From Desulforhabdus amnigena (GTDB lineage: Bacteria; Desulfobacterota; Syntrophobacteria; Syntrophobacterales; Syntrophobacteraceae), in contig NZ_BSDR01000001.1 of assembly GCF_027925305.1 (NCBI RefSeq), positions 709,001-773,000 on the forward strand: a stretch of 64,000 nt of DNA. Reading direction: 5' to 3'. Both the position numbers and the translations under genes were made by a program. Shown in pieces: positions 24,283 to 46,983 of this stretch; the first letter of the stretch is position 1; each line of letters opens with the position of its first letter. The notes under the pieces were generated by a model. That model made no database searches. It saw only the letters and a list, made by a program, of their open reading frames with translations, and had not been told where the DNA came from.

Positions 24283-25689
24283 ATGACCGTCTCCGAAGCA
24301 GCGAGAATTCTGGGTCTCTTCGAACACACCGTTTCTTTCCCCTTTATACTGGATGAAATTCCACTCGGTATCGCCGTGCTCGATGCCGAACGCCGCATTG
24401 TTTTGCTCAACAGAACGCTGGAGGGATTGACGGGGTTTGTGCGCCGGGAAGCGCACGGCATTCCCTGTGCTTATATCCTTCGCAATAATATCTGTCTTGA
24501 AAATTGCCCTTTCCTCAATATCCAGGAATCGTCCGAGCCCATTTCCCTGGAAGGAAACATCATCAACCGGGATCGCCAGAAAATTCCCGTGAGGATCACT
24601 TTCGCCCCTATCCGCGATTCGGTGGGTAAAATTGTCGGCTTTCTGGAAGCGGTGGAAGATATTCGGGCTCTTCGAGCCAAAGAGGGAAATATCGGGAAGG
24701 CCTACAGCTTCGGACACCTGATCGGGCGCAGCCCTCAAATGGAGAGGATCTTTCAGGTTCTTCCCGTCATCGCTCAATCCGATTCGTCCGTATTGATCAC
24801 AGGAGAAACCGGCACAGGAAAAGACTTCGTGGCTGAAGCCATTCATCAGGCATCCCCCCGAGCCCGCGATGCTTTCATTAAGGTCAATTGCGGAGCCCTG
24901 CCGGAAACCCTCCTGGAGTCGGAACTTTTCGGTCATCAGAAAGGGGCTTTCACGGGGGCTGTCGAAAACAAACCGGGGCGATTTCGGTTGGCGCACAACG
25001 GCACGCTTTATCTCACCGAAATTGGTGATCTTCCCCTCTCCCTGCAGGTGAAGATTCTCACCTTTCTCGATGACAAGGTTGTGTATCCTCTGGGGAGCAC
25101 CAAGGGCTTCCAGGTCAATGTTCGAATTATCGCCGCAACACACCGGAATCTCGAAAAAATGGTACGTGAGGGGCGGTTTCGTGAAGACCTTTTGTTCCGA
25201 TTGAACGTGGTTCGTCTGCAACTGCCGCCGCTGCGGGAGAGAGGCGACGACGTTCGCCTCCTCCTGGATCATTTTCTGCATGCGTATGTCTCGCAGTTCA
25301 AGAAACCGGTTCAAGGCTTTTCATCCAAGGCGCTCAAAATCCTGATCGATTACAGGTATCCGGGGAACGTGAGGGAACTTAAGAATATCGTGGAGTATTC
25401 CCTGAATATCTGCCAGGAAGATCGCATTCAGCCCAAGCATCTTCCCGCCTATCTTACCGAACCTGGAGTGGCTCACGAGATGAGGAGCGAGGAGACAGTG
25501 CCTCCCGCCTTTGCGGTACCTGTTCAAGGCAATGAGGAGACGAGTTGCGACTGGGCAGCCATGGAAAGAAAACTGATTTTGGATGCTCTCGTGCAGGCTA
25601 AAGGACGAAGAAGCAAGGCTGCGGAGCTCCTTGGATGGGGAAGAAGCACCTTGTGGAGAAAAATGAAACAATATGGGATGGATTCTTAA
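24283..25689 (+). CDS. PAS-domain sigma-54-dependent transcriptional activator
   Basis: A 468-residue enhancer-binding protein. Residues 15-130 are a PAS domain with three cysteines (C62, C71, C75), suggestive of a redox or Fe-S sensor. Residues 145-375 are the AAA+ domain with Walker A GETGTGKD (174-181) and a canonical GAFTGA loop (221-226). Walker B is odd: LYLTEIGD, with Thr245 in place of the usual Asp, while Glu246 is kept. Residues 425-466 are a Fis-type helix-turn-helix. It lies in a run with MoeA-PBP, PflX-like and NifX-like genes and probably regulates them or remote genes. It is not a two-component receiver protein. Confidence 0.92.
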   Translation: MTVSEAARILGLFEHTVSFPFILDEIPLGIAVLDAERRIVLLNRTLEGLTGFVRREAHGIPCAYILRNNICLENCPFLNIQESSEPISLEGNIINRDRQKIPVRITFAPIRDSVGKIVGFLEAVEDIRALRAKEGNIGKAYSFGHLIGRSPQMERIFQVLPVIAQSDSSVLITGETGTGKDFVAEAIHQASPRARDAFIKVNCGALPETLLESELFGHQKGAFTGAVENKPGRFRLAHNGTLYLTEIGDLPLSLQVKILTFLDDKVVYPLGSTKGFQVNVRIIAATHRNLEKMVREGRFREDLLFRLNVVRLQLPPLRERGDDVRLLLDHFLHAYVSQFKKPVQGFSSKALKILIDYRYPGNVRELKNIVEYSLNICQEDRIQPKHLPAYLTEPGVAHEMRSEETVPPAFAVPVQGNEETSCDWAAMERKLILDALVQAKGRRSKAAELLGWGRSTLWRKMKQYGMDS

Positions 25690-31659: not shown

Positions 31660-31700
31660 TTTTTTAGGGCAGCGGACCGTCGGACTGCGGGAGGATGGCA

Positions 31701-32360
31701 ATGGAAGGGAAGGAAGCAGCATTCCTGGGTAAAGTCACTGCCGGTTTTACTCACGAATTGAAAAACGTCCTGGCTATCATCAAGGAATCGGCGGGACTTA
31801 TGGAAGACCTGCTTTCCGTCACTCCTGCAGGGGCTTTTCCTCACCAGGAAAGGTTTTCCCGGGCTTTGACGCGTATTCTGGAGCAGGTGGAACGCGGAGT
31901 GGATCTGTCGACACGGCTGAATCGCCTGGCCCACAGTCCGGATTTTCCCCTGGCTACGATCGATCTCAATGATACATGTCGGCAGATGGTCCTCCTTTGT
32001 GAACGTTTTGCAAGGCTCAAGGGCGTCGTTCTCAGGTGTACTCCCTCGGACACGAATCCTACGACGATGACCTCCCCACTCCACTTTCAGATGTGCCTGT
32101 TTTGGGCCCTTGAATCTTTATGGAATCAGATGAAAAACGGGGGAGAAATCACGCTTCTGGTAGAACCCAAAGGGGAAGATGTCAAAATTTGCGTGGTATG
32201 TTCCGGAGAGCTTGGCAGCGAAGATGCTTTTCATGAAGATGTCACGTGCGCTGAAAACTGGATGGTCGCTGTAAACACTATGGAGCACCTTGGGGGGAGG
32301 ATGGAGAAGGGCCATGGCAGTTTTAGTTTTACCCTAGCATTGCCCGCAGAGACGAAATAA
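31701..32360 (+). CDS. Small soluble HisKA protein with degenerate ATPase part
   Basis: A 219-residue protein. The ATG at 31701 has GGGAGG 6 bases upstream; an ATG at 31695 is closer. The N-terminus is a dimerisation/phosphotransfer helix with H18 in GFTHELKNVLAII. The C-terminal about 120 residues align loosely with HATPase_c (ending GHGSFSFTLALPA) but lack clear N, G1 and G2 boxes, so it probably does not bind ATP. It has no sensor or membrane segment. It may act as a phosphotransfer protein between the neighbouring receivers. Confidence 0.75.
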   Translation: MEGKEAAFLGKVTAGFTHELKNVLAIIKESAGLMEDLLSVTPAGAFPHQERFSRALTRILEQVERGVDLSTRLNRLAHSPDFPLATIDLNDTCRQMVLLCERFARLKGVVLRCTPSDTNPTTMTSPLHFQMCLFWALESLWNQMKNGGEITLLVEPKGEDVKICVVCSGELGSEDAFHEDVTCAENWMVAVNTMEHLGGRMEKGHGSFSFTLALPAETK

Positions 32361-32374
32361 AATTTTCGTGCTAT

Positions 32375-32419
32375 ATTGTTTCAATTTGTCTTATTCTTAT
32401 TGTTTTAAATTGTTTCAAT
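32375..32419. promoter_or_regulatory. Two copies of palindrome ATTGTTTCAAT upstream of a sigma-54 promoter
   Basis: ATTGTTTCAAT at 32375-32385 and again at 32409-32419. Each copy is itself a palindrome (ATTG ttt CAAT), and they are 34 bases apart, about three helix turns. They lie 70-115 bases before the -24 element at 32489, typical of tandem activator sites. A third, weaker match (ATTGTTTTAAAT) lies between them. Confidence 0.5.
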
Positions 32420-32450
32420 ATGGCTTGATCGTGAACTTTCTTTAACGAAA

Positions 32451-32480
32451 TTAGCTGTAAGTTATTGTAATTGCAGCTAA
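32451..32480. promoter_or_regulatory. Inverted repeat just upstream of the 32489 promoter
   Basis: TTAGCTGTAA (32451-32460) and TTGCAGCTAA (32471-32480), 9 of 10 complementary, with a 10-base spacer, ending 8 bases before the -24 element. It could be a repressor or architectural-protein site. Confidence 0.4.
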
Positions 32481-32488
32481 GTTAAAAA

Positions 32489-32503
32489 TGGCACAATCAT
32501 TGC
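32489..32503 (+). promoter_or_regulatory. Consensus sigma-54 promoter
   Basis: TGGCAC-AATCA-TTGC is an exact match to the -24/-12 consensus with correct spacing. Counting the last C as -12, transcription starts near 32515, right before a terminator-bounded stretch and about 160 bases before the next gene. Confidence 0.8.
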
Positions 32504-32514
32504 CAATTAAAGGG

Positions 32515-32560
32515 AGACTGAAGGGACCTGTGTGAAGGGACCCCGACGCTCCCTTTTTTT
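32515..32560 (+). ncRNA. Candidate short sigma-54-dependent RNA or attenuator leader
   Basis: The predicted transcript starts near 32515 and meets an intrinsic terminator within about 46 bases. GAAGGGACC occurs twice (32521-32529 and 32535-32543), and the second AAGGGA can pair with TCCCTT (32550-32555) followed by T residues to 32560. The first AAGGGA can pair with the same strand, so two structures compete. This could be a very short regulatory RNA or an attenuator controlling the receiver genes downstream. I know no family for it. Confidence 0.4.
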
Positions 32561-32672
32561 ATGTCCATTTTCTGAAAAACAGGAATCTTGGGTGTCTCTT
32601 CTGAATGTGAAATACTCTTAAAGATGTTCGTTGTGCTTTCACAGCAAACGGACGGGATGCAGGGATACTGGT

Positions 32673-33143
32673 TTGCCTCGACCCGTGGAAGTAAGGTTGC
32701 TGATCATTGAAGCGGATGACTTGTTTCGCCGGAATATCTCCGAGCGACTGCGCCTCGAAAATTATGAGATCTTCGAGGCGAACGGAGAAACCGAGGCAAA
32801 GAACATTATTCGAAGAACCGACGTGGATGTCGTCTTGCTGGGGTTGGCTTCCATCAAAAAGCGGGGTTTGGCCCTGCTGAAAGAAATCAAAGAATTGAGG
32901 CCACTGACTGAGGTCATTCTCATGACCCCTTCTGAAGGTCTCTCCCTCACACTTTCCATCGAAGGGATGAAGTTGGGCGCTTTTGACGATCTTCTGGTGC
33001 CCTTCGATATGGAAACTCTGCTGGAACGCGTGGAAGAAGCATTCAGGCAGAAAAAGAGGAAAAGCGGTCGGCGAAGATCAAGTACCGAAGTTGCCGAAGA
33101 AGAGCGAAGCAATGAAGATCTTTCGGGGAAAGCCAAGATTTGA
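32673..33143 (+). CDS. Pseudo-receiver response regulator
   Basis: A 156-residue receiver-fold protein with key residues lost. The phospho-acceptor Asp is Gly (VVLLGLASI where VVLLDLxMP is expected) and the conserved Lys is Val (LLVPFDM), while the Thr of LMTPSEG remains. It therefore cannot be phosphorylated in the normal way and may be a docking partner or decoy. The tail is basic then acidic (KKRKSGRRRSS...). The start is uncertain: TTG at 32673 with AGGGA 7 bases upstream is my choice; GTG at 32685 and TTG at 32631 are alternatives. It lies downstream of the sigma-54 promoter at 32489. Confidence 0.75.
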   Translation: MPRPVEVRLLIIEADDLFRRNISERLRLENYEIFEANGETEAKNIIRRTDVDVVLLGLASIKKRGLALLKEIKELRPLTEVILMTPSEGLSLTLSIEGMKLGAFDDLLVPFDMETLLERVEEAFRQKKRKSGRRRSSTEVAEEERSNEDLSGKAKI

Positions 33144-33271
33144 TCCATGGGAAGGGCTACTGAATTGTATTAAAATCAGAGACATGAAAGGACTCTTGTG
33201 CGGATTGCATGTCGTTGGGTCCGAAAAAGAATAGATTGTTGAAAAGCTTGTCAAAGACAGAAGGGCGGATC

Positions 33272-33643
33272 ATGGGGAAATTCAGAGTACTGCTGGTGGA
33301 CGATGAGGAAGAATTGGTCAAGGCTTTGGCGGAGCGTTTGGAAATTCGCAAGCTCTCCTGCCAGATTGCTTTGAATGGAGAAGAAGCCCTGCGGATTGTC
33401 GAGGATAGCCCTCCCGACGTCATGGTGCTGGACCTCAAGATGCCGGGTATGGACGGGATGGAGGTGCTGAGGCGGGTGAAAAAATCGCACCCTGAAATTG
33501 AGGTGCTCATTTTGACGGGGCATGGTTCGGAAAGCGACGAGCAAATCGCAAGGAGACTGGGGGCCTTTGATTATCTGCAAAAACCCGTGGATATCCGGGA
33601 GCTGGTCAGTGCTTTGGAAAGAGCCTACGGAGCGAAGTCCTGA
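33272..33643 (+). CDS. Receiver-only response regulator
   Basis: A 123-residue CheY-like protein with a start at 33272 behind AGAAGGG. The acidic pair is in LVDDEEE, the acceptor is D54 in MVLDLKMPGMDG, Thr is in ILTGHGS and Lys is in YLQKPVD. It closely resembles the receiver of the kinase-like fusion at 30430 (DDERE/DDEEE, LDLKMPG, LTGHGS), suggesting local duplication. It has no output domain. Confidence 0.92.
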   Translation: MGKFRVLLVDDEEELVKALAERLEIRKLSCQIALNGEEALRIVEDSPPDVMVLDLKMPGMDGMEVLRRVKKSHPEIEVLILTGHGSESDEQIARRLGAFDYLQKPVDIRELVSALERAYGAKS

Positions 33644-33752: not shown

Positions 33753-34184
33753 ATGAAAATCAGGGTTCTTTTGGTAGATGATGAAAAAGATTTTGTGGAT
33801 GTTTTGGCCGAGCGATTGGAAACGCGCGATTTTGAAGTTTCCATTGCTTACAATGGCGACGAAGCCATCGAAAAGATTAAGGAAAAGGAAATGGATGTCG
33901 TGATTCTGGACGTGCTCATGCCCGGAAAAGATGGCATCGAAACACTGATGGAAATCAAGAAAATCAAACCTATCCTGGAAGTCATCATGCTCACCGGGAA
34001 TGCCACGGTGGAATCTGCTGTGGAAGGGATGAAAATCGGGGCCTTCGACTACCTCATGAAACCCACCGAGACCAAGGATCTGGTGGCGAAGATCGTCAAG
34101 GCCTACAAGCGCAAAGCGGAACAGGAGGAACGCATTCGCCAGGCCGAAATCGAGCGCATCATGATGACGCGGGGATGGGGTTGA
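33753..34184 (+). CDS. Receiver-only response regulator with helical tail
   Basis: A 143-residue CheY-like protein: acidic LVDDEKD, acceptor D53 in VILDVLMPGKDG, Thr in MLTGNAT and Lys in LMKPTET. The last about 25 residues form a charged helix (YKRKAEQEERIRQAEIER) that may mediate binding to a partner. It is the last gene before a terminator-like hairpin at 34230. It is one of several related receivers in this block. Confidence 0.92.
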   Translation: MKIRVLLVDDEKDFVDVLAERLETRDFEVSIAYNGDEAIEKIKEKEMDVVILDVLMPGKDGIETLMEIKKIKPILEVIMLTGNATVESAVEGMKIGAFDYLMKPTETKDLVAKIVKAYKRKAEQEERIRQAEIERIMMTRGWG

Positions 34185-46968: not shown

Positions 46969-46983
46969 TGGCACGACCATTGC
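46969..46983 (+). promoter_or_regulatory. Consensus sigma-54 promoter for the kinase at 47050
   Basis: TGGCAC-GACCA-TTGC is an exact -24/-12 match. The start of transcription would be near 46995, 55 bases before the kinase start codon. Confidence 0.78.

Follow-up and report, generated by a model that had tools for sequence, protein, structure and literature searches.

Between a degenerate histidine kinase gene and a group of receiver genes, the genome of Desulforhabdus amnigena carries a sigma-54 promoter followed by a terminator-type hairpin, which raises the question of whether this promoter serves a short RNA or the receiver genes. The initial annotation of the window (the whole stretch of 64,000 nucleotides that was analysed; coordinates refer to it, and the genes and elements given here with both start and end are on its forward strand) had favored a tiny regulatory RNA or a two-state attenuator. 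Its layout of promoter, enhancer sites, and leader hairpin ahead of receiver genes holds up; the dedicated tiny RNA and the two-state repeat switch find no support.

The sigma-54 promoter and its operon

The -24/-12 element TGGCACAATCATTGC lies at 32489-32503, as annotated, and matches TGGCAC-N5-TTGC exactly. However, since TGGCACN5TTGC has 12 matches in this genome and the reversed control also has 12, a bare match is weak evidence by itself, and the significance of this one derives from its conservation upstream of relatives of the pseudo-receiver gene. A near-perfect site (score of at least 13/14, no more than 450 bp upstream of the pseudo-receiver gene) is present in 19 of the 26 best relatives among many found by scanning genome contigs for pseudo-receiver homologues, where 0.27 are expected from shuffles; for more distant receivers the count is 5 of 47, with 0.53 expected. 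A composite pattern of the enhancer pair and TGGCA has one match in this genome and zero control matches there, and its strict form has six matches over 56 genomes, four of which are this locus in D. amnigena, G002, G001, and G010. The locus combines the -24/-12 consensus with upstream enhancer sites, and the genome encodes both RpoN, once (one Sigma54_DBD), and a candidate enhancer-binding protein. Other exact sigma-54 consensus sites occur in or near the signalling region, at 46969 and 55350 in the window and at C1:801243 in the genome.

In some of the relatives, a short plain leader separates the sigma-54 promoter from the pseudo-receiver gene. Because the promoter leads into the pseudo-receiver operon in the other relatives examined, we assign it to a protein operon; judged by sequence conservation, the element at 32489-32503 is the conserved promoter of a Desulfobacterota pseudo-receiver operon, shared by many sulfate-reducing relatives, rather than a peculiarity of a tiny RNA. 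The first gene of the driven operon (32685-33143) encodes a receiver-like protein in which the phosphoacceptor Asp is replaced by Gly, as it is in all four aligned Syntrophobacteraceae pseudo-receiver proteins. Elsewhere in the receiver family the position varies, with Ser or Asp in many Desulfobacterales (L048, L050, L059, L064, L090, and L113), which suggests repeated loss of phosphorylation. Comparison with the congener gives a dN of 0.17 and a dS of 2.5, indicating purifying selection on the pseudo-receiver gene, which is therefore presumably expressed. Two ordinary receiver-domain genes (33209-33643 and 33753-34184) follow in the same presumed operon.

The last gene ahead of the promoter (31695-32360) encodes a degenerate histidine-kinase-like protein with the H-box FTHELKN and a weak match to ZraS, in which no Pfam family and no recognisable Pfam ATPase domain were found; its orthologue in G002, L003, is 59% identical. 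A degenerate kinase thus adjoins a degenerate receiver. In L003, a large perfect inverted repeat, CAGCCTCCTGACCG...CGGTCAGGAGGCTG, stands right after the kinase-like gene and has no U-run. The leader of the operon in D. amnigena is about 170 nt long, and no sigma-70-like promoter was found in the part past the hairpin (32561-32684). Several Desulfobacterales have a leader of 300-440 nt with a small ORF (MKKWIEKxERTFAAVxFAEAGEH-like) ahead of the pseudo-receiver gene. This small protein of about 60-120 aa, with its repeat-like FAAVxFAEAGEH motif, opens the operon in L050, L051, L052, L055, L080, L090, and L113, and the two members scanned have no Pfam match.

The enhancer array and a candidate activator

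Both of the ATTGTTTCAAT sites that had been reported upstream of the promoter are exact. They lie exactly 34 bp apart, at 32375-32385 and 32409-32419, and are the only exact copies within the window. A degenerate copy, ATTGTTTTAAA, at 32399-32409, is placed 24 bp past the first site and 10 bp ahead of the second. The same spacings of 10, 24, and 34 bp separate TGTTTCA copies across the D. amnigena promoter and those of 22 relatives; in the enhancer zones of these 23 promoters, TGTTTCA was observed 24 times (0.3 expected), and its position in the relatives, counted from the -24 element, is about -112. A weak IHF-like element, TAAGTTATTGTAA, at 32458-32470, has two mismatches to YAAN4TTGATW; in several relatives an exact IHF-type sequence stands about 31 bp ahead of the -24 element, matching the distance in D. 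amnigena.

A gene for a PAS-AAA+-Fis enhancer-binding protein (24283-25689; Pfam PAS_9, Sigma54_activat PF00158, and the Fis-type HTH domain HTH_8) is located upstream in the window. Its orthologue is found upstream of the pseudo-receiver gene, on the same strand, in 14 of the 22 relatives, at 58-69% identity over near-full length; two further relatives have shorter matches at contig ends, and some of the loci that have no orthologue end early upstream of the gene. These orthologues keep the C-terminal LLGWGRSTLWRK unchanged or almost unchanged. Since the activator gene is conserved beside most of these loci, the most likely role of its product is to bind the TGTTTCA array and thereby activate the operon from 32685.

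This arrangement resembles sigma-54 promoters of the NtrC/NifA class in its -24/-12 elements, tandem enhancer sites about 80-110 bp upstream, an IHF-type bend, and an AAA+ activator with a Fis-type HTH encoded near its target. It differs from that class in that the target is a pseudo-receiver operon and in that the Desulforhabdus promoter has a putative terminator placed where transcription begins. Neither TGTTTCA nor the shorter GTTTCA occurs in the main text of the report on the Desulfovibrio vulgaris sigma-54 regulome (PMC4641369), and TGTTTC is absent from PMC3333781.

A leader hairpin in Desulforhabdus

The terminator-type hairpin that had been annotated before the receiver genes is present at 32509-32560. 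It pairs a 5' arm, AAAGGGAG (32509-32516), with a 3' arm, CTCCCTTT, that runs into the U-tract of an intrinsic terminator (32549-32560), and with its T7 run it folds at -19.2 kcal/mol (z of about -1.9 to -2.1 versus shuffles). Transcripts that contain the full 5' arm thus carry a G+C-rich stem with a U-run immediately behind it. An automated terminator scan that admits loops of up to 8 nt misses the hairpin for that reason.

Conservation in relatives had been expected for promoter and hairpin alike; it extends to the promoter, as described above, but the hairpin was not seen in the leaders examined beyond the genus and recurs in one congener, Desulforhabdus sp. TSK (G002), the only one found. 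There, the orthologous position reads TGGCACAATCCTTGC-6 nt-AAGGGAG...TTCCCTTTTTT, so that both arms, as well as their spacing from the promoter, match those of D. amnigena, with one G-C to G-U change. The congener hairpin folds at z = -3.6 versus shuffles, and in each of the two genomes the native sequence outperforms most or all of its shuffles. The loops are unrelated, differing in length and sequence, and the two leaders align poorly. The arm pattern AAGGGAG...(C/T)TCCCTTTTTT has one match in each Desulforhabdus genome, both at this locus. Elsewhere the hairpin arms are sporadic (20 matches listed over 56 genomes, about twice the reversed control); the one match on contig C328 of G009, which carries a related locus, appears to fall within a coding region. 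A survey of the 56 genomes for sigma-54 sites followed by a U-run yielded, by eye, the two Desulforhabdus leaders as the clear hairpin cases, a DNA-level search of 26 family genomes with the intergenic region returned no match beyond itself, and none of the other relatives' leaders examined has a start-site hairpin with a U-run directly after it. From these comparisons the hairpin is, unlike the promoter, lineage-specific, a putative leader terminator at the genus level. The congener also has a second pseudo-receiver gene (L191, G002 C15:55500-57500) with a diverged TGTTTCA array and a sigma-54-like site, TGGAACACTCTTTGC; its leader contains a very stable hairpin with T7 before the gene.

The doubled GAAGGGACC is likewise present, with copies at 32520-32528 and 32534-32542, each of which could serve as an alternative partner of TCCCTT. 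The doubling is only mildly unusual, since a direct repeat of at least 9 nt within 45 nt occurs in 0.4% of the window's stretches of that length and in 2.8% of the shuffled versions of this stretch. We rejected a switch based on it, because the doubling is not conserved: the congener lacks it, and no mutually exclusive pairings are shared.

Possible roles of the leader hairpin

The position of the transcription start relative to the hairpin bears directly on its role. Transcription is predicted to start near 32515 and to end by 32560. If the C of TTGC is taken as -12, the nominal +1 is A32515, inside AAGGGAG, and the geometry is the same in the congener; actual sigma-54 starts vary by a few bases. 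Because the 5' arm straddles the nominal +1, a point that the initial annotation does not mention, read-through RNA would form the full terminator and sigma-54-started RNA a weaker one. Read-through RNA folds at -20.5 kcal/mol in D. amnigena and -24.7 kcal/mol in the congener, compared with -12.1 and -9.1 kcal/mol for RNA from the nominal +1 and -17.8 and -19.7 kcal/mol for RNA from -3. According to these energies, it is RNA coming in from the kinase operon upstream that forms the strongest hairpin. In the congener, the stem of the +1 RNA no longer touches the U-run; in D. amnigena, a GAAGGGACC copy can replace the 5' arm in the sigma-54 RNA, giving a substitute terminator.

The best reading of the hairpin, as far as its sequence and folding indicate, is that of a leader terminator or attenuator. 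In the specific form that we propose, and to which we give about an even chance, the PAS-AAA+-Fis activator would bind the TGTTTCA array and switch on the pseudo-receiver/receiver operon from 32685, and the Desulforhabdus leader would open with an intrinsic terminator, its 5' arm lying across the point of initiation. Read-through RNA of the upstream kinase operon would carry the whole 5' arm and be stopped, while sigma-54-started RNA would carry part of the arm, form a weaker hairpin, and pass in part. The hairpin would thereby insulate the operon and partly attenuate its message, and short terminated RNAs, about 37-50 nt in length, would arise as by-products. One component of this proposal, that a start-site-embedded terminator stops read-through and passes new transcripts, is more tentative. 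Such a terminator would be a built-in discriminator of transcript origin, because the sigma-54 start point splits one hairpin arm. The presence of the hairpin at this locus in two genomes only and the substitute terminator formed with GAAGGGACC in D. amnigena both count against the proposal as a whole.

If transcription began 2-3 nt before the nominal +1, the sigma-54 RNA would contain nearly the whole hairpin, favoring simple attenuation. Transcripts would then begin at the G residues 32512-32514, form the full hairpin, and mostly stop near 32560, with relief by some factor or condition. The hairpins of RNA from -3 adjoin the U-run in both genomes, and in the paralogous congener leader, too, a terminator is present, some way downstream of the start; both observations are consistent with attenuation. 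However, this explanation requires the upstream shift of the start, the doubled repeat is not conserved, and Rfam searches turned up neither a known antitermination element nor an alternative structure that is conserved; we consider it rather unlikely. The leader shares with known intrinsic-terminator attenuators a terminator between the promoter and a first gene kept by selection, but no sensor, leader peptide, or conserved antiterminator is known for it, and the arm straddles the start.

Sigma-54-dependent small RNAs include Qrr, GlmY/GlmZ, and CrcZ. Precedents for a dedicated trans-acting tiny RNA also exist in D. vulgaris, where four ncRNAs are described as sigma-54-regulated (PMC4641369) and the small RNA Dv_sRNA2 is sigma-54-driven (PMC3333781). 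Like Qrr, GlmY/GlmZ, CrcZ, and Dv_sRNA2, the Desulforhabdus element has a sigma-54 promoter followed by a short RNA bounded by a terminator. Here, however, the promoter belongs to protein genes, which it feeds in the other relatives, the RNA body is not conserved, the loop being unlike that of the congener, and 46 nt is very short. Rfam gave no credible match for the leader at permissive or gathering scores, and no match to Hfq, which an Hfq-dependent sRNA would need, was found in the genome. Given that the promoter leads into an operon in the other relatives examined, that the loop differs between the two Desulforhabdus genomes, and that no Hfq was found, the tiny RNA of the initial annotation is unsupported and appears improbable; the hairpin is more likely a brake or an insulator, judging from these features, than a free-standing tiny RNA.

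We regard as similarly improbable that the hairpin is a stable 5' structure shielding the mRNA of the operon, with the U-run following it incidentally. Leaders of other Syntrophobacteraceae open with stable hairpins (z = -2.4 in L045 and -1.95 in L047) that have no U-run right after them, but those genomes are G+C-rich, L046 is not significant, and in both Desulforhabdus copies 6-7 U residues adjoin the stem, as is usual for terminators. Titration of CsrA by the AGGGA motifs of the short RNA is very improbable, since the congener retains one AGGGA only, partly upstream of the start, so that the several motifs (three within 51 nt) are in the D. amnigena sequence only and not conserved GGA sites, even though CsrA is encoded in the genome.

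An activator-driven operon with a leader hairpin that acts as insulator and partial attenuator remains our preferred reading. Across the Desulfobacterota, the analysis connects an activator with the DNA sites that it probably binds and with the operon that it probably controls. The predicted regulon would comprise the pseudo-receiver and single-domain receivers, which adjoin sulfate-permease-type and DASS-type transporter genes in the window. In Desulforhabdus, the leader offers a simple system in which to test whether a terminator can distinguish read-through RNA from newly initiated RNA.
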